Source: Bacilli bacterium | GTDB lineage: Bacteria > Bacillota_I > Bacilli_A > RF39 > UBA660 | DNA length: 64,000 nucleotides | Assembly (NCBI GenBank): GCA_017626405.1 | Contig: JAGAIS010000001.1 | Span: forward strand, 422,885 to 486,884 | Direction of reading: 5' to 3' | Shown: in pieces, positions 5,904-19,452 of the stretch | Numbering within the stretch: the first letter of the stretch is position 1 | Layout: each line of letters begins with the position of its first letter | Translations under genes and position numbers: made by a program | The notes under the pieces: model-generated | Seen by the model: only the letters and a program-made list of their open reading frames with translations | What the model was told of the DNA's origin: nothing | Database searches by the model: none

Positions 5904-5948
5904 AAATATGATTTATGATATAATTATTTATAGTAAAGGGTGAATGTG

Positions 5949-7598
5949 ATGAACGAAAGTGGATTAATTGAACAGGTACTTAGAATAATTAATAGCAATT
6001 ATTCTAATATATATGTTATAGATATTTTGAGTGATAAAGTTTATTCATTTGATTTTAATGTTGCAAATAGTTTAATTATTAGAGAGACTTTGACTTATAC
6101 TGATTTTGTCGAAGCTGCTAAGAAGTTTATTTATGAAGAGGATTTAAATGATTATTTTGCAGCTATTTCACTAAATAAGTTAGAGATTGAAAGTCAAAAG
6201 GGAAATCAAGAGACAAAAGTTAAATATCGCAAATTAAGTCCATCGGGAGATTATCGCTTCAATGTTAATATAATTAATTATTTGCCTTTTGAGGGCAAGA
6301 AATTAATATTCATGATGAGTGAAGATATCAATAGTAGACTTGTCGATACAGAAGAAAAAGTTGAGAATTTAACTCAGAAAAATATCGAATATCAAAATCG
6401 TTTAAATGAGGAAAGTGAAAGTATTGGAAATGCTATTCTAGAAATTAATAATATTTTAGATATGAAGTCCAATAATGAAAGCATCAACACAAAGAATTAC
6501 ATTAATTCAGTATTTAATCGAGTAAGTAATTCTCATCCTGAATTAAATCAAGCAATAACAAAGAGAATGGTAAGAGATACTAATGTAGCTAAACCAACTA
6601 TACTAATTGTCGATGATTCTTCAATTATTCGAAATTCATTAAAGAGAATATTTGCTAATGATTATGAAATAGTCATGGCTAAGAATGGAAATGAAGCTAT
6701 TGAAATTATTACTAAGAATATTTTAAATAGAACTACAAATCAGGAATATATCAATATTGTGGGTATTTTACTTGATTTAATAATGCCTGGAGTCGATGGA
6801 TTTGCGGTTCTAGACTTCCTTAAAAATTTTAATCTTTTAAATAAGATACCTGTTGCTATTATCAGTGGTGACGAGACTAAAGAGACGAGAAGAAAAGTAT
6901 ATGAATATGATATTGTCGATATGTTAGAAAAACCATTTAATACAGAAAATATTAGAAGAAGAATAAGTAAGATTATCAGTATGTATATGGCAAGTGATAA
7001 TTTAAAAACTATTATTGCTTCAAAAACACACGAATTAAGTAGTGAATCACAGGAAAAATATGATAGTTTGAGTATCGTAGTTCAAAAGATGGTAGAGAAT
7101 ATTGTCAACTCAGAAAACTCTATTAGAATGAAAAAGATGGTTAGAGAAATTGCTCTAGAATTGCAAAATACATACCCTCAGTACAAATTGACTAGCAAGT
7201 ACATTGATAACATAGTGTCAACTGCACCTCTTTATAATATTGGATCTCTTGCTATACCAATTGATGCTGTAGTTTCCATTAAAAATATAAAGGAATCAAT
7301 TGATTTCGGGTTGGTAATCATGAATAATTATCTTAATGATGAAGATGAATTGAATGTTGCATCTAATATTATTAAGTATAGCTTCGAATTATATAATGGT
7401 ATGGGATATCCTAGCAATATAAGGGGAAATGAGATACCTATTGAAGCACAAATTGTAAATATAGTTGCTAGAATATGTAAGAGTAACAAGAGCTTTACTA
7501 CAACATTTAAAGCAATTACGGATACTGAAGCAACTAAATATAATCCAGATATAATTAATGTCTTAAAAACAATTAAAAAGAAAATAAAAGATATTTAG
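5949..7598 (+). CDS. Response-regulator protein with degenerate HD-GYP domain
   Basis: The 549-residue protein has three parts. Residues about 1-190 are an N-terminal sensor-like region that I do not recognise with confidence. Residues about 215-340 form a receiver domain with the acidic pair (VDDS), the phospho-acceptor Asp in LLDLIMPG and a Lys in LEKPF. Residues about 360-549 resemble an HD-GYP c-di-GMP phosphodiesterase: 'GMGYP' and 'EIPIEAQI' are kept, but the HD pair is replaced (PLYNIG instead of LHDIG) and the later 'HHE' is YSF. Loss of the metal ligands suggests a non-catalytic sensor or effector. I start at the ATG at 5949, seven bases after AAAGGGTG; a GTG lies at 5940. Confidence 0.8.
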   Translation: MNESGLIEQVLRIINSNYSNIYVIDILSDKVYSFDFNVANSLIIRETLTYTDFVEAAKKFIYEEDLNDYFAAISLNKLEIESQKGNQETKVKYRKLSPSGDYRFNVNIINYLPFEGKKLIFMMSEDINSRLVDTEEKVENLTQKNIEYQNRLNEESESIGNAILEINNILDMKSNNESINTKNYINSVFNRVSNSHPELNQAITKRMVRDTNVAKPTILIVDDSSIIRNSLKRIFANDYEIVMAKNGNEAIEIITKNILNRTTNQEYINIVGILLDLIMPGVDGFAVLDFLKNFNLLNKIPVAIISGDETKETRRKVYEYDIVDMLEKPFNTENIRRRISKIISMYMASDNLKTIIASKTHELSSESQEKYDSLSIVVQKMVENIVNSENSIRMKKMVREIALELQNTYPQYKLTSKYIDNIVSTAPLYNIGSLAIPIDAVVSIKNIKESIDFGLVIMNNYLNDEDELNVASNIIKYSFELYNGMGYPSNIRGNEIPIEAQIVNIVARICKSNKSFTTTFKAITDTEATKYNPDIINVLKTIKKKIKDI

Positions 7599-7624: not shown

Positions 7625-7653
7625 TTGAAACATATCTTTTTATTTGTTATAAT
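7625..7653 (+). promoter_or_regulatory. Sigma-A promoter for the TasA-like operon
   Basis: TTGAAA (7625-7630), a 17-base spacer and TATAAT (7648-7653) lie just upstream of an AGGAGG site and the TasA-like gene. Confidence 0.8.
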
Positions 7654-7686
7654 TTAATTGTAAATAATAGAGGAGGAAAGTTGAAA

Positions 7687-8292
7687 ATGAAATCTAAGAG
7701 ATATTATGCACAAAATGCTGCTATTATAGTACTTGCTTTGGCAATTATAGTTATGTCAGTAGGTTATGCAGCATATAGTACTCAATTACAGTTGAAAGGA
7801 GTTACTACTGTTCAATCAAGTAAATGGAGTATTCTTTTACAAAATCCAACAAAATATTCTACAACAACTATTGCTGATGATAAAATCACTAAATTAGAAG
7901 TTAGGGATTTAGCAGTAAATTTTGCTGCTGAAATGACTATTCATGATACATTCAGCTTTACAGTAGATGTTGTTAATGATGGTACATTTGATGCAAAACT
8001 TACTGGTTGGTCTTTAACTGCTAAAAATACAGCAACTAATGAAGCTATTGCAGTAGATGAAAATAAAACTGGTGCTTCAAATTCATATTTAACATATTCA
8101 GTTAAATGGCTAGATGGTACAGCTTTAGCACAAAATGATCCGTTAAAGCATAAAGTTGCAGGAAGTTCTGAAAACGTAAAAAAATTACTAGTAACAGTTC
8201 AAACTCATGAGCCTACTAGTGTAAATGATTTACCAGCAACTAATCAAAGTTTTGAATTTGATTTCCAAATGACTTACGGAACAATATTCTAG
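7687..8292 (+). CDS. TasA/camelysin-like secreted protein with SipW-type signal peptide
   Basis: The 201-residue protein begins with a basic N terminus and a long hydrophobic stretch leading to 'SVGYAAYSTQLQLKG', the form of signal peptide processed by SipW-type peptidases in TasA and camelysins. The mature part is beta-rich with the pattern 'FTVDVVNDGTFDAKL', shared with the next gene. TasA-family proteins polymerise into extracellular fibres. The ATG at 7687 has AGGAGG eight bases upstream; an upstream TTG frame extension is not needed. It has the strongest promoter and ribosome-binding site of the locus, so it is a candidate major subunit. Confidence 0.75.
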   Translation: MKSKRYYAQNAAIIVLALAIIVMSVGYAAYSTQLQLKGVTTVQSSKWSILLQNPTKYSTTTIADDKITKLEVRDLAVNFAAEMTIHDTFSFTVDVVNDGTFDAKLTGWSLTAKNTATNEAIAVDENKTGASNSYLTYSVKWLDGTALAQNDPLKHKVAGSSENVKKLLVTVQTHEPTSVNDLPATNQSFEFDFQMTYGTIF

Positions 8293-8307
8293 GAAATAAA
8301 ATAAACG

Positions 8308-8333
8308 ATGACCATTACGCAAGTAGTGGTTAT
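8308..8333 (+). promoter_or_regulatory. Intercistronic hairpin with GCAA tetraloop
   Basis: An 11-base-pair stem (ATGACCATTAC / GTAGTGGTTAT, with two G-U pairs) is closed by a GCAA loop of the GNRA class. Only a weak T run follows. It separates the first TasA-like gene from the rest of the operon and may act as a leaky terminator or 3'-end stabiliser. Confidence 0.6.
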
Positions 8334-8353
8334 TTGTGATTTAAGGTGATAAT

Positions 8354-8893
8354 ATGGAGAAAAAAATTAATTATCCTGGCATAACAATATTTTTACTTGC
8401 GATATCAATACTTGCTATGTCTATTGGTTTTGCTGTTCGTTCAGAAAAACTGAGAATTAATGGTAGTACTACTATCGGGGAATCGCCAAGGTGGAATGTT
8501 CATTTTGAAAATATAGAAGTTTCCCAAAATAGTGTTTTTGGAGAAAGTGTAAGAAAGCCAGCTACCATAATTAATAACGAATCAACTTTTATTAATTATG
8601 ATGTAGTTCTTACTTCTTACAACGACTCATATGAATTTACTGTTGATTTAGTAAATGAAGGAAATATTAATGCAAGGATAAGCAGTGTTATGTATACATT
8701 ATCTGATGAAGCTAAGAAGTATTTAGATTATTCTATCGAATATGAAGATGGAACTAAAGTTTTAGAAGGTGATGAACTTCCAAAGAGAAGTAAGAAGAAA
8801 ATAAAAGTAAAATTACAAAATATTTTTAAGGAAGATGTAGTTGGAGAAAAACAATTTGATATATCATTTGCTTTAGAAGTTGTACAAAAATAA
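8354..8893 (+). CDS. Second TasA-like secreted protein
   Basis: The 179-residue protein is a paralogue of the previous one. It has a hydrophobic leader with 'SIGFAVRSEKLRINGSTTIG' in place of the SipW-type cleavage region, and a beta-rich mature domain with 'FTVDLVNEGNINARI'. It could be a minor or anchoring fibre subunit, as TapA is for TasA in Bacillus, although it is not recognisably TapA. AGGTGATA precedes the ATG. The gene is 61 bases from its paralogue and 20 from the signal peptidase gene. Confidence 0.7.
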   Translation: MEKKINYPGITIFLLAISILAMSIGFAVRSEKLRINGSTTIGESPRWNVHFENIEVSQNSVFGESVRKPATIINNESTFINYDVVLTSYNDSYEFTVDLVNEGNINARISSVMYTLSDEAKKYLDYSIEYEDGTKVLEGDELPKRSKKKIKVKLQNIFKEDVVGEKQFDISFALEVVQK

Positions 8894-8912
8894 GAATAAA
8901 TAGGGAGATTTT

Positions 8913-10058
8913 ATGAAGAATAAAAGTATATATATTTATGAATTAATATTATTTGCTTTTATTGCTATCTTCAAAATATTTTTTAATGATAGATTTTCAC
9001 AATTTGAAGAAATTACAATAATTCTTTTCTTCGGAGCGAGTTTGATTGTTCTATATCAAGTATTGGGTAGAAGGAAGAATAAATCATTGCTAACCGATAA
9101 TGCAATTCAGTTATCGATAATTGTAACTATGTTATTTTTCTTACTCAGTTACTTGAGTGGATTAATTTTGGGATTCCTAAAGAATTCATATTCCATTAGT
9201 GTGTTAAGTGTTTTAAAGAATATAACATGTTTTTCGGTGATGATTATATCAGAAGAAATAATCAGAGAGATGGTAGCAAAAAGATGCAATGTTAAAAAAT
9301 TACCTTTAGTAATATTAACTATTGCCTATATTCTATTTGATTTAGTATTAGTATTTAATGTTAACAGTGTTAATACTAATTTAAAAATATTTGTATTTGT
9401 ATGTAATACAGTTTTGCCAATTATTGCAAGAAATTTACTGTGTTCATATTTAGCATATAATATTGGGGCAACTCCAGGTATTATTTATCGTCTTGCTATG
9501 ACTCTATACCCTTATATATTGCCAATCGTTCCTGATTTAGGATACTATATATCAAGTGTATTTGGAATATTAGTTCCATACATTATATATATACTAATAT
9601 CTAAATTGATTAAAGATAGTGAGAAAATAAAATTAAGCCCAATAAAGAAGAATCTTTGGTACATAAATATACCTTTAATTGTGATGCTTCTTTCTGTTGT
9701 TTCACTTGTATCGGGAATATTCAAATACCAAATAATGGCAATTGGTTCAGGATCTATGGAACCAATAATACAAGTTGGTGATGCTGTAATATTTAGCAAA
9801 TTAAAAGAATCAGAAAAGATGGATGCTGATGTTGGAGAAGTATTGGTATTTATGCACAATGGCAAATATATAACACATAGAATAGTTAATAAATATGTCG
9901 ATTCTGAAGGTGAGTTAGTCTATCAGACTAAAGGAGATAAAAATAATGATAATGACAATTTCGCTGTTCATAAAAGTGATGTTGTTGGAGTTGTTAAATT
10001 GAAGATTAATTATATAGGTTTACCTAGTATTTGGGTACAAAATTTGTTTAGAAATTAA
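8913..10058 (+). CDS. sipW: SipW-type signal peptidase I with multispanning N-terminal extension
   Basis: The C-terminal domain (from about residue 265) has the signal peptidase I signature. The nucleophile Ser lies in 'GSGSMEP', and 'THRIVN' supplies His where typical bacterial enzymes have Lys, which is the ER/SipW-type arrangement; 'TKGDKNND' matches the conserved 'GDxxxxxD' box. The first 260 residues hold about seven hydrophobic helices, which is unusual because SipW proteins are about 190 residues with one or two helices. The gene sits between TasA-like genes and a DUF5305-like gene, so it probably processes their leaders at the outer face of the membrane. The role of the extension is unknown. 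Confidence 0.85.
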   Translation: MKNKSIYIYELILFAFIAIFKIFFNDRFSQFEEITIILFFGASLIVLYQVLGRRKNKSLLTDNAIQLSIIVTMLFFLLSYLSGLILGFLKNSYSISVLSVLKNITCFSVMIISEEIIREMVAKRCNVKKLPLVILTIAYILFDLVLVFNVNSVNTNLKIFVFVCNTVLPIIARNLLCSYLAYNIGATPGIIYRLAMTLYPYILPIVPDLGYYISSVFGILVPYIIYILISKLIKDSEKIKLSPIKKNLWYINIPLIVMLLSVVSLVSGIFKYQIMAIGSGSMEPIIQVGDAVIFSKLKESEKMDADVGEVLVFMHNGKYITHRIVNKYVDSEGELVYQTKGDKNNDNDNFAVHKSDVVGVVKLKINYIGLPSIWVQNLFRN

Positions 10059-10070
10059 GGAGGCTAGTAT

Positions 10071-11189
10071 ATGGAAAAGAATACTAAGAGAGCAAAAAGA
10101 ACTAATAAAAATAAAAAGAGTGAAATAGTAATGCCTAAGAAGAATAATGCTATAACTTATATTTTATTTGCTATTGCTATAATTATAACAATTATTCTAG
10201 CAGAATATTTTACTACTAAAAAAGTTGATGATATTGTATTATCACAGTTGAATTACTTTGAAACTGCCAATACAGATTTTAAAGTTTATTACAAAAAAGG
10301 TGCATTTAAGGATAAAGATTATTATGTATGTGATAACAATCATACAGATACTTGTGTAACTCAATTTGTCGATAATATAGATACGACATTTAATTACTAT
10401 AATAGTTATTCTGAAGATATAAATGGATCATATTCATACTATGTTAAAGCAACTTTAAAAGTATTTGAACCAGGAAAAGAGGAAAATGTTTACTGGGCTC
10501 CTGAATATGATTTGACAGATAAAGAGACAATTGATTTCAACAAACAAGGTAGTTATCGCATATCTAAGAATTTAGTTATCGATTATGAAAAATTCTTAGA
10601 AGAATATAATAAATATAAGAGTAAGAGTGCAATATCTACTAGTGCTAAGTTAATTGTTAAGTTTATTGTAAAGAATGATGGTGAATATCCTGGATTAAAT
10701 AGTATTGCTCATGATGCGGATATTACTATGGAAGTTCCTCTAAGTGAACAATCATTCAATATTACTTTTAGTAATTCAATAAAACCAGAAGAACAAAAAA
10801 TTGTTAATCTAGAAGATAATCAAGCTGATAGAATATTTACTAAGATTATTGCTGGATTATGTTGGCTATTTGCTGTATTATTATCGGCAATTCTATTTAT
10901 TGTTTATCGCACTAATGTAAATAAAGAAAGTTTATATTCAAGAAAACTAAAGAAGATATTAAATACTTATGATAGTATTATTGTAAATGTTGAAACATTG
11001 CCAAAGACAAGTGATTTAAGTGTTGTAAATGTTACTACATTCGAAGAACTTGTCGATGCTCAAATGGAAGTAAGATTGCCAATTAACTTCAAAGAAGATA
11101 CGAAGAAACATATTGCTAAGTTTGTTCTTGTAAGAAATAATTTGGCTTGGATTTATACTTTAGAAGAGGGTAATGAAGGTGAAAAATAA
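10071..11189 (+). CDS. DUF5305-like membrane protein of the SipW locus
   Basis: The 372-residue protein has a Lys-rich N terminus, a transmembrane helix (about residues 27-44), an ectodomain of about 210 residues with many aromatic residues and two Cys (VCDNNHTDTC), a second helix (about 264-284) and a cytoplasmic tail of about 85 residues. Topology and the 'F...GSY.I...L.IDYEKFLEEY' region resemble DUF5305 proteins, which often occur beside SipW-type peptidases in archaea and Firmicutes. A consensus AAGGAGG precedes the ATG. It may be an assembly or anchoring factor for the fibre subunits; this is an inference from context. Confidence 0.65.
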   Translation: MEKNTKRAKRTNKNKKSEIVMPKKNNAITYILFAIAIIITIILAEYFTTKKVDDIVLSQLNYFETANTDFKVYYKKGAFKDKDYYVCDNNHTDTCVTQFVDNIDTTFNYYNSYSEDINGSYSYYVKATLKVFEPGKEENVYWAPEYDLTDKETIDFNKQGSYRISKNLVIDYEKFLEEYNKYKSKSAISTSAKLIVKFIVKNDGEYPGLNSIAHDADITMEVPLSEQSFNITFSNSIKPEEQKIVNLEDNQADRIFTKIIAGLCWLFAVLLSAILFIVYRTNVNKESLYSRKLKKILNTYDSIIVNVETLPKTSDLSVVNVTTFEELVDAQMEVRLPINFKEDTKKHIAKFVLVRNNLAWIYTLEEGNEGEK

Positions 11190-12516
11190 ACTTAGGATAA
11201 TATTTAATCATTCGAGTATTATTGTAAGTTTAGTCTTAGTTATTCTTATAAGTTTCATTAGTGTTGGCTATGCTTTCTATAGTGCAGAGTTATCTTCTAT
11301 AGGAATAATTAGTTTAGATGTTACTTCCAATATAGATTGCATAGCAACTAGTTTGACAAATGGTGATAATAAAAATACTACTTATATTGATTCTTCTTAC
11401 ACAAATCAAGAATATCATAATAAGAGTATTATAAAGTCGAAAGTATATGGTACTTTCAATAGTGGATCAGGAGATTATATGACGATGGTTATTAACATCA
11501 AAAATGTATCTTCACAACCACAGACGTTTACTGAATTTGCTAGTTCATCTTCTCTCGATTCCGATGGCAATTTTTTACCACAGCCAAGACTTTTAAACAT
11601 TGTGATTGGCGATGTGTTAGAACCAAATGAATCGAGGGATATTAGGGTTATATATTATTATAAAAATAGTATAAGCAATCAGAAATCCTTTGAAGCAGAA
11701 TATACATTTATATTTGAAGATGGAAGGGTAAATGTTACAGTACCAACAATGATGGGAACTATCGATAAAAATGTATTTGATGTTAAAGATGAAGTTGTTA
11801 GTTCAAGTGTTAATATTGTCAATGCTTTTGATGTTTCTGTTAAGTATTATCTTCGCCTAAGCAATAATGATGGAATTGTTACTTTAGTTGATGGTTCTAA
11901 TAAAGTATCTAGTTATTCAAGCATATTAGATGCTGGCGAAAATGAAAATAAACCAATATATTTTAAGGTCGATTTTGGAACAAATGCTTCTGTTTCAACT
12001 ATGTTATATATAGAGACAGAAAATGGAGAGATATATGACATTCAAGAATTAACATTTAATAATAATAATAAACCTCAATCAATTATACCTATTAATATTA
12101 TTGTTGAAGCGTCTAATAAATGGCAAGGTTCTAGTTATAGTCTTTGGCTGGAAGCTGATAATTCGGCTAATGATACGCCTGTAACTGATTTTTCAATTGT
12201 TGTTAAATTTAAAGATGGTTGTGCGCTTAAAAGCTTCCAATATTATGGTACGGGAGTTGGCAAATGGAACAATTCAACTTTAACATATACTATCAATGGA
12301 ATAGATCAATGGAATACGAGAGAACATTTATCTATTCCTGAAAATACTACTCAGAGATTTGGTATCTTTAAAATGGATTTCTATGATGAATTAGAAACAA
12401 TTTATGATTATATCGATTATGTAGTTGTTCTGAATGAGATAGAAGATCCTGGCGATTCTGAAGCAGAATGTTCTTATAATGAAGATAATGAATTTGTCTG
12501 CAGTCCTGGTCAATAA
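11173..12516 (+). CDS. Secreted protein with SipW-type leader and C-terminal carbohydrate-binding-like domain
   Basis: The 447-residue protein has the leader 'FISVGYAFYSAELSSIG', the same motif as the two TasA-like proteins, and so is a likely SipW substrate. Two beta-rich regions follow. The last one (about residues 310-435) has the spacing of a cellulose-binding CBM2/CBM3-like fold ('W.GSSYSLWLEADN', 'ISIPENTTQRFG'-type strands), although this assignment is tentative. A Cys-containing acidic tail closes the protein. Its start overlaps the end of the DUF5305-like gene by 17 bases, so translation is probably coupled. A terminator ends the operon after it. Confidence 0.65.
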   Translation: MKVKNKLRIIFNHSSIIVSLVLVILISFISVGYAFYSAELSSIGIISLDVTSNIDCIATSLTNGDNKNTTYIDSSYTNQEYHNKSIIKSKVYGTFNSGSGDYMTMVINIKNVSSQPQTFTEFASSSSLDSDGNFLPQPRLLNIVIGDVLEPNESRDIRVIYYYKNSISNQKSFEAEYTFIFEDGRVNVTVPTMMGTIDKNVFDVKDEVVSSSVNIVNAFDVSVKYYLRLSNNDGIVTLVDGSNKVSSYSSILDAGENENKPIYFKVDFGTNASVSTMLYIETENGEIYDIQELTFNNNNKPQSIIPINIIVEASNKWQGSSYSLWLEADNSANDTPVTDFSIVVKFKDGCALKSFQYYGTGVGKWNNSTLTYTINGIDQWNTREHLSIPENTTQRFGIFKMDFYDELETIYDYIDYVVVLNEIEDPGDSEAECSYNEDNEFVCSPGQ

Positions 12517-12547
12517 AGAAATTAATTTATTTAATTTCTTTTTTTAT
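12515..12547 (+). terminator. Rho-independent terminator of the SipW/TasA operon
   Basis: The stem AAAGAAATTA / TAATTTCTTT is followed by a T tract. Confidence 0.75.
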
Positions 12548-19235: not shown

Positions 19236-19452
19236 TGTAAAGCAATTGATGAAGACGGCTTTTATTAATATCTTATAGAGAGTCTCTGGTTGGTGGAAAG
19301 AGATAAGAAATGGTAAGTAGCAAATCACTTCAGATGTGACTTGGGGATAAGCTAAGTACGTTACTCGCGTTAAGAGAATAAGATGAATATACTTCATAAA
19401 TTAAGGTGGTACCACGAATAAAATCGTCCTTATGTTTATGAAGTTTTTTTAT
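19236..19452 (+). promoter_or_regulatory. T-box riboswitch, isoleucine-specific, upstream of ileS
   Basis: The leader has the Stem I hallmarks AGAGAGTCTC and GGTTGGTGGAAAG, a specifier ATC (19324-19326) that reads isoleucine, and the T-box core AAGGTGGTACCACG (19403-19416). It then has a terminator stem (ACTTCATAAA / TTTATGAAGT) with a T tract ending near 19452. Uncharged tRNA-Ile is expected to stabilise the antiterminator and switch on ileS. Confidence 0.95.

Follow-up and report, generated by a model that had tools for sequence, protein, structure and literature searches.

A recurrent operon for a putative donor-strand surface fibre in uncultured gut Bacilli, with a signal peptidase fused to an eight-helix membrane domain

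Gene content and recurrence of the locus

In the window, the whole stretch of 64,000 nucleotides that was analysed, five genes on the + strand form an operon that runs from a promoter-like site at 7625-7653 to a last stop at 12516, with a terminator reaching to about 12547. The name SipX is given here to an enlarged signal peptidase with an eight-helix N-terminal membrane domain. The features are as follows, a slash marking the predicted cleavage site of each leader.

7625-7653, + strand: promoter-like TTGAAA-17-TATAAT with a TG extension, a consensus match only
7687-8292, + strand: TasA1, putative fibre subunit, 201 aa, leader ...SVGYA/AYS; subunit-family profile 117 bits / 148 bits
8307-8334, + strand: hairpin after TasA1, dG -15.1, z -5.3
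8354-8893, + strand: TasA2, putative fibre subunit, 179 aa, leader ...SIGFA/VRS; model pLDDT 90.9
8913-10058, + strand: SipX, 381 aa, consisting of an N-domain (aa 1-245) and a signal peptidase (aa 246-381)
10071-11189, + strand: DUF5305 protein, Pfam PF17231 at 59.2 bits
11173-12516, + strand: larger leader-bearing protein, 447 aa, leader ...SVGYA/FYS; N-terminal part at 25.7 bits to the subunit profile
12515-12547, + strand: terminator-like hairpin with a T run at the operon end (hairpin 12515-12545, dG -8.5, z -2.5)

The promoter-like site, with 11 of 12 matches the best in the region, and the hairpin after the last gene agree with the single, terminator-closed operon described by the first-pass annotation. 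The three related leaders listed there are present (...MSVGYAAYS from the ATG at 7687, ...MSIGFAVRS from 8354, and ...ISVGYAFYS from 11173), as are the Ser and His of the peptidase (Ser281 and His322 in the 8913-10058 product) and the DUF5305-like protein, which scores well above the 29-bit Pfam cut-off. The strong hairpin at 8307-8334 was absent from that account.

The same gene order, which the first pass had suggested looking for in other genomes, recurs in 100+ loci, and the operon arrangement is therefore not due to chance. The N-terminal membrane domain is found again in more than 100 uncultured gut bacteria, among which the gene order hardly varies; these relatives, many of them recovered from the guts and rumens of mammals, are metagenome-assembled Bacilli that bear the labels uncultured Bacilli, Erysipelotrichaceae, Tenericutes, or Candidatus Faecisoma. 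Contigs were scanned with a five-row alignment as the query; the peptidase of the window alone found nothing. Of 41 loci in a first set, 36 have a subunit-type gene as the immediate upstream neighbour of SipX, 38 have DUF5305 immediately downstream, and in 27 DUF5305 is followed by another secreted protein. The second set, 69 named loci whose flanks were long enough, gave 59/69 and 65/69 for the two adjacent positions; a few loci come from genomes represented in both sets, and a few members of the second are labelled Clostridia, Oscillospiraceae, or Saccharibacteria, which may be mislabelled bins. The loci hold one to four tandem subunit copies.

A peptidase match exists in 160 of the 193 genomes of family f1; among the matches listed, roughly a hundred span nearly the whole fused protein. 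Full-length SipX and DUF5305 are both present in 81 genomes and both absent in 83, with 15 discordant (4 and 11 with a single one); the Fisher p of 4e-33 is not literal, since the genomes are related, and the genome lists were compiled by hand. In the class-wide sample, the full-length fusion occurs in f1 and in two listed genomes outside it (G212 and G265), where the DUF5305 gene adjoins the fusion gene, and the remaining listed class members carry stand-alone peptidase domains.

The host genome (1.25 Mb, 88.7% complete) has four matches to penicillin-binding transpeptidases and five to sortases, the latter on contigs C2, C4, C8, and C10, which rule out a wall-less host. The gene adjoining the operon at 5940-7598 encodes a response regulator with an HD-GYP-like output, in which the HD metal motif reads APLYNIG, not the usual LLHDIG; the same altered-HD regulator is found in the same-genus genome G161 (L147). 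We rejected this regulator as a part of the module and treat it as a neighbour, because it stays beside whiA in the cassette-less relative L158. A T-box leader (RF00230, 97.9 bits) is located at 19237-19434 of the window.

Subunits, leaders, and the hairpin between genes

By profile match, TasA1 and TasA2 are members of one family, with TasA1 the probable major subunit, and both contain the G-[YFW]-A cleavage region of a SipW-type leader. Of 145 leaders, which were selected for G-x-A, 64% have an aromatic residue at P2', 124 have Leu at P6', and 117 have Ile at P8'. LepB cleaves TasA less readily when P2' is aromatic, and this residue is part of the fit of TasA to SipW (PMC10269814). The G-[YF]-A site is expected to be poor for an ordinary signal peptidase, because the second mature residue is mostly aromatic.

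TasA2, the one substrate modelled of the three, shows a leader helix, unpaired residues 29-48, and then an Ig-like β sandwich with an opening for a donor strand; the N-terminal strand is free. Such an N-terminal strand is used in TasA assembly (PMC9674648). In a Foldseek search against 350,542 PDB chains, the top matches of the model were FimG, FimF, the Sulfolobus thread 7pnb, and CFA/I, with further matches to the Pyrobaculum bundling pilin 7ueg and, at rank 23, the TasA fibre 8aur. The E-values are marginal (best 1.2e-3) and the TM-scores low (0.3-0.44); despite the marginal E-values, the enrichment of donor-strand pilins among the fold matches of this model appears specific. The subunit profile finds the archaeal bundling pilin AbpX at E 1.1e-4, which makes AbpX the nearest solved sequence relative; the subunits had no match to the camelysin Pfam model, nor any by sequence to solved TasA. 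The substrates had been described as TasA-like, and a structural comparison with TasA had been proposed: the fibre-type fold is borne out, and the subunit profile lies nearer to AbpX than to Bacillus TasA.

In the 447-aa protein, both the leader and the N-terminal part match the subunit profile. Its relatives in the same slot are variable, with lengths of 250-2200 aa and lectin-like, fibronectin, Listeria-Bacteroides, and other surface modules, and a role as tip or adhesin is plausible. The carbohydrate-binding-like end previously ascribed to this protein was not recovered, having no Pfam or PDB match, and no LPXTG-like end was seen among the listed C-termini of the large cassette proteins.

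A strong hairpin is present in 55 of 71 testable gaps between subunit and SipX genes (median z -3.4), versus 21 of 60 control gaps (median z -1.3). The median length is 60 nt for the gaps between subunit and SipX genes and 11 nt for those between SipX and DUF5305. The hairpin of the window follows TasA1; in most relatives it lies between the subunit and machinery genes. With a median of 13 pairs the stems are long, and most have no T run. Since at least five T occur in the next 8 bases for only 10 of 57 gap hairpins, we rejected a simple terminator and prefer mRNA protection or partial attenuation. Judged from sequence, the hairpin is probably a stoichiometry or attenuator element that keeps subunits above the machinery. 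A comparable break exists after bsaA in C. perfringens (PMC7395162).

The enlarged signal peptidase and the DUF5305 protein

Residues 246-381 of SipX form a signal peptidase of the ER/archaeal type (S26B; SEC11A, E 4e-22), in which Ser281, His322, Asp342, and Asp348 are each invariant in 121 relatives. SipX passes the curated archaeal-type model TIGR02228 (78.3 bits, cut-off 51.85) and fails the Bacillus SipW equivalog NF046067 (65 bits, cut-off 190), as do the stand-alone paralogues. The initial designation as a SipW-type peptidase is thereby upheld for the ER/archaeal kind and not for Bacillus SipW, and because the curated tests fail, we do not file the locus under TasA or Bacillus SipW. In a tree of the peptidase domain, the fusions form a clade (45/46, support 0.78) that contains none of the 21 stand-alone members. 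The N-terminal extension is absent from the 21 stand-alone relatives compared, in line with the earlier remark that it lacks an equivalent in Bacillus SipW.

Two further loci in the same genome contain peptidases of this kind. A second, conventional SipW operon (L132:2947-8604, contig C2) comprises a response regulator, a likely histidine kinase, a leader-bearing protein of 186 aa (VGATFAYFS), a stand-alone peptidase, and further membrane-anchored proteins. A third ER/archaeal-type signal peptidase (L131:6239-7959, contig C5) lies between two small leader-bearing proteins, neither of which matches the fibre subunit profile.

The extension itself, residues 1-245, forms eight helices in the structure model, not the seven first counted, before the peptidase's own anchor. 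As read from the sequence, Lys/Arg residues are abundant in the loops that follow helices 2, 4, and 8, which places the peptidase domain outside. Helix 4 carries a Glu-x-x-Arg pair, with E115 invariant (121/121) and R118 nearly so (120/121); these buried residues, together with conserved prolines, are maintained across 121 divergent sequences. Pfam searches with 42 members of the N-domain gave no consistently matching family and no CPBP or Rce1-like match in any. Foldseek aligned the domain with four chains of Rce1 4cad (probability 0.89-0.98, about 263 columns, E 0.056), and hhalign against a CPBP profile built from proteases of related genomes gave 89% (P 2e-6, 223 columns), or 86% with fewer sequences. 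All hhalign controls (reversed 0.6%, block-permuted, and unrelated polytopic) scored lower, the best permuted one coming close at 41.2 vs 45.5.

CPBP proteases carry EExxxR in TM4 (PMC11980579). R118 aligns with the Arg of this motif, and the two alignments place the Glu in different registers. The CPBP motifs EExxxR, FxxxH, and HxxxN are absent from the N-domain, which has ExxR only and no conserved catalytic His. The eight-helix domain of SipX is a previously undescribed membrane domain that, as far as remote sequence and model comparisons indicate, probably resembles the CPBP (Rce1) fold with both catalytic histidines lost, and would be at most a derived, probably inactive relative. We favour a CPBP-derived scaffold over a protease, because neither catalytic His is conserved. 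APH-1 is a scaffold, and we draw a parallel between it and the N-domain. Elsewhere in the genome (L145:13909-15477, contig C4), two adjacent CPBP-type membrane proteins of 292 and 229 aa are encoded, the second weakly scoring.

The DUF5305 protein has an N-terminal membrane anchor, an extracytoplasmic domain, a second membrane helix, and a conserved cytoplasmic tail; short versions of 185-230 aa match the second half of the Pfam model only, at about positions 117-217. At the whiA site in the window's own genus, the full cassette is present in the window and L154, a subunit with DUF5305 and without SipX in L147 and L155, a subunit only in L157, and nothing in L158; in L156, DUF5305 adjoins whiA and the contig is cut close upstream. 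Full-length SipX occurs somewhere in all nine own-genus members, so the mini-loci could be processed in trans. An extra subunit and DUF5305 pair without an adjacent peptidase lies at L145:8276-9885 (contig C4) of the host genome. Because DUF5305 goes with the subunit and not with the peptidase, we favour a function in the fibre as partner, base, or sensor, and gene association suggests that it is probably a dedicated partner of the fibre. We rejected the idea that DUF5305 is a diverged subunit, the profile comparison giving just 6%. A literature search found no mention of DUF5305.

Proposed assembly and comparison with known systems

We consider it likely that the operon makes a donor-strand surface fibre, with the SipX N-domain as scaffold, DUF5305 as base or partner, and the large protein as tip or adhesin. 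TasA1, TasA2, and the large protein would be exported by Sec and held at the membrane by their leaders until SipX cuts after G-[YF]-A. The cut would free an N-terminal strand (L-x-I) that completes the Ig sandwich of the following subunit. The CPBP-like domain, its protease residues lost, would most likely serve as an in-membrane scaffold holding uncleaved leaders and/or DUF5305 beside the catalytic domain. DUF5305 would most likely be the membrane partner or base, the large protein would form the tip or act as an adhesin, and the hairpin after the subunit gene would probably keep subunits in excess over the machinery.

Three other explanations were weighed against this one. The low TM-scores of the subunit model, sub-threshold subunit matches to generic Ig-like repeats such as DUF11, and the variable, adhesin-like last gene are compatible with a SipW-dependent secretion cassette without a fibre, whose products stay unpolymerised as monomeric adhesins or matrix proteins; we regard this as unlikely, given the unpaired L-x-I strand right after the cleavage site, the donor-strand pilins enriched among the top fold matches, the AbpX profile match, and the tandem subunit copies with a hairpin that would raise subunit supply. 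A conventional TasA-like fibre, in which the membrane extension is just a lineage-specific anchor of no special role, would fit the L132 operon, where a stand-alone peptidase goes with similar leaders in the same genome. It seems rather unlikely to us, as an extension kept in 121 divergent sequences with an invariant buried E/R pair and conserved prolines, on peptidases that form a clade apart from the stand-alone ones, argues against a plain anchor.

SipX might also be a double protease, the eight-helix domain acting as an altered but active CPBP intramembrane protease that makes a second cut, for example in the released leader. The Rce1-like fold, the CPBP profile match, and an E115/R118 pair conserved like the signal peptidase catalytic residues speak for it, but the domain has no conserved His at the catalytic position, ExxR in place of EExxxR, and no match to the Pfam Rce1-like model, and we hold a second proteolytic activity to be quite improbable.

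The best reading is a novel form of the TasA/AbpX donor-strand fibre system, set apart by its fusion of a scaffold with the peptidase, by DUF5305, and by the position of the hairpin. We tentatively extend this reading, as a possibility that we ourselves doubt, to SipX and DUF5305 as a membrane assembly platform for monoderm donor-strand fibres, where the CPBP-derived pseudoprotease would gather leader-anchored subunits, the peptidase would release strands stepwise with assembly, and the DUF5305 base would signal via its cytoplasmic tail. Such a platform would correspond in function to the usher, and we know of none in any TasA/AbpX-type system. The TasA and archaeal-thread papers name no usher (PMC9674648, PMC9715654). 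For the membrane assembly of TasA/AbpX fibres, SipX and DUF5305 thus become two concrete machinery candidates; DUF5305 gains its first testable role, and surface fibres are predicted in a widespread, uncultured, small-genome gut lineage.

The tapA-sipW-tasA locus of B. subtilis and the sipW-calY locus of B. cereus likewise place a dedicated ER-type peptidase beside leader-bearing β-sandwich subunits whose cleavage sites are flanked by aromatic residues, and these TasA/CalY loci produce donor-strand fibres (PMC9674648, PMC10151520). Unlike in Bacillus, the window has the order subunit-peptidase-DUF5305-large protein, a peptidase of about 380 aa with an eight-helix domain, and no camelysin Pfam match. 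The N-domain is similar to CPBP/Rce1 (4cad) in its eight helices and in a polar pair in helix 4 that recalls EExxxR in TM4 (PMC11980579), but differs in the missing histidine motifs, the ExxR spacing, and the fusion to a signal peptidase. In S. pyogenes, the signal-peptidase-type protein SipA (4n31) is needed for pilus polymerisation, according to the PDB title; SipX, in contrast, keeps Ser-His, and its system shows no evident sortase dependence. Archaeal bundling pili (AbpX 9sj2/9rhp; 7ueg) share the fold class with the window subunit and include its nearest solved sequence relative, whereas the host here is a bacterial monoderm; the comparison covers the subunit. The sipW-bsaABCRSD operon of C. 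perfringens encodes a SipW-dependent filament, with a terminator/readthrough dividing the subunit gene from the downstream genes (PMC7395162); it differs in having a stand-alone SipW as the first gene and an included two-component system, and an operon of that kind is found elsewhere in the present genome, at L132.
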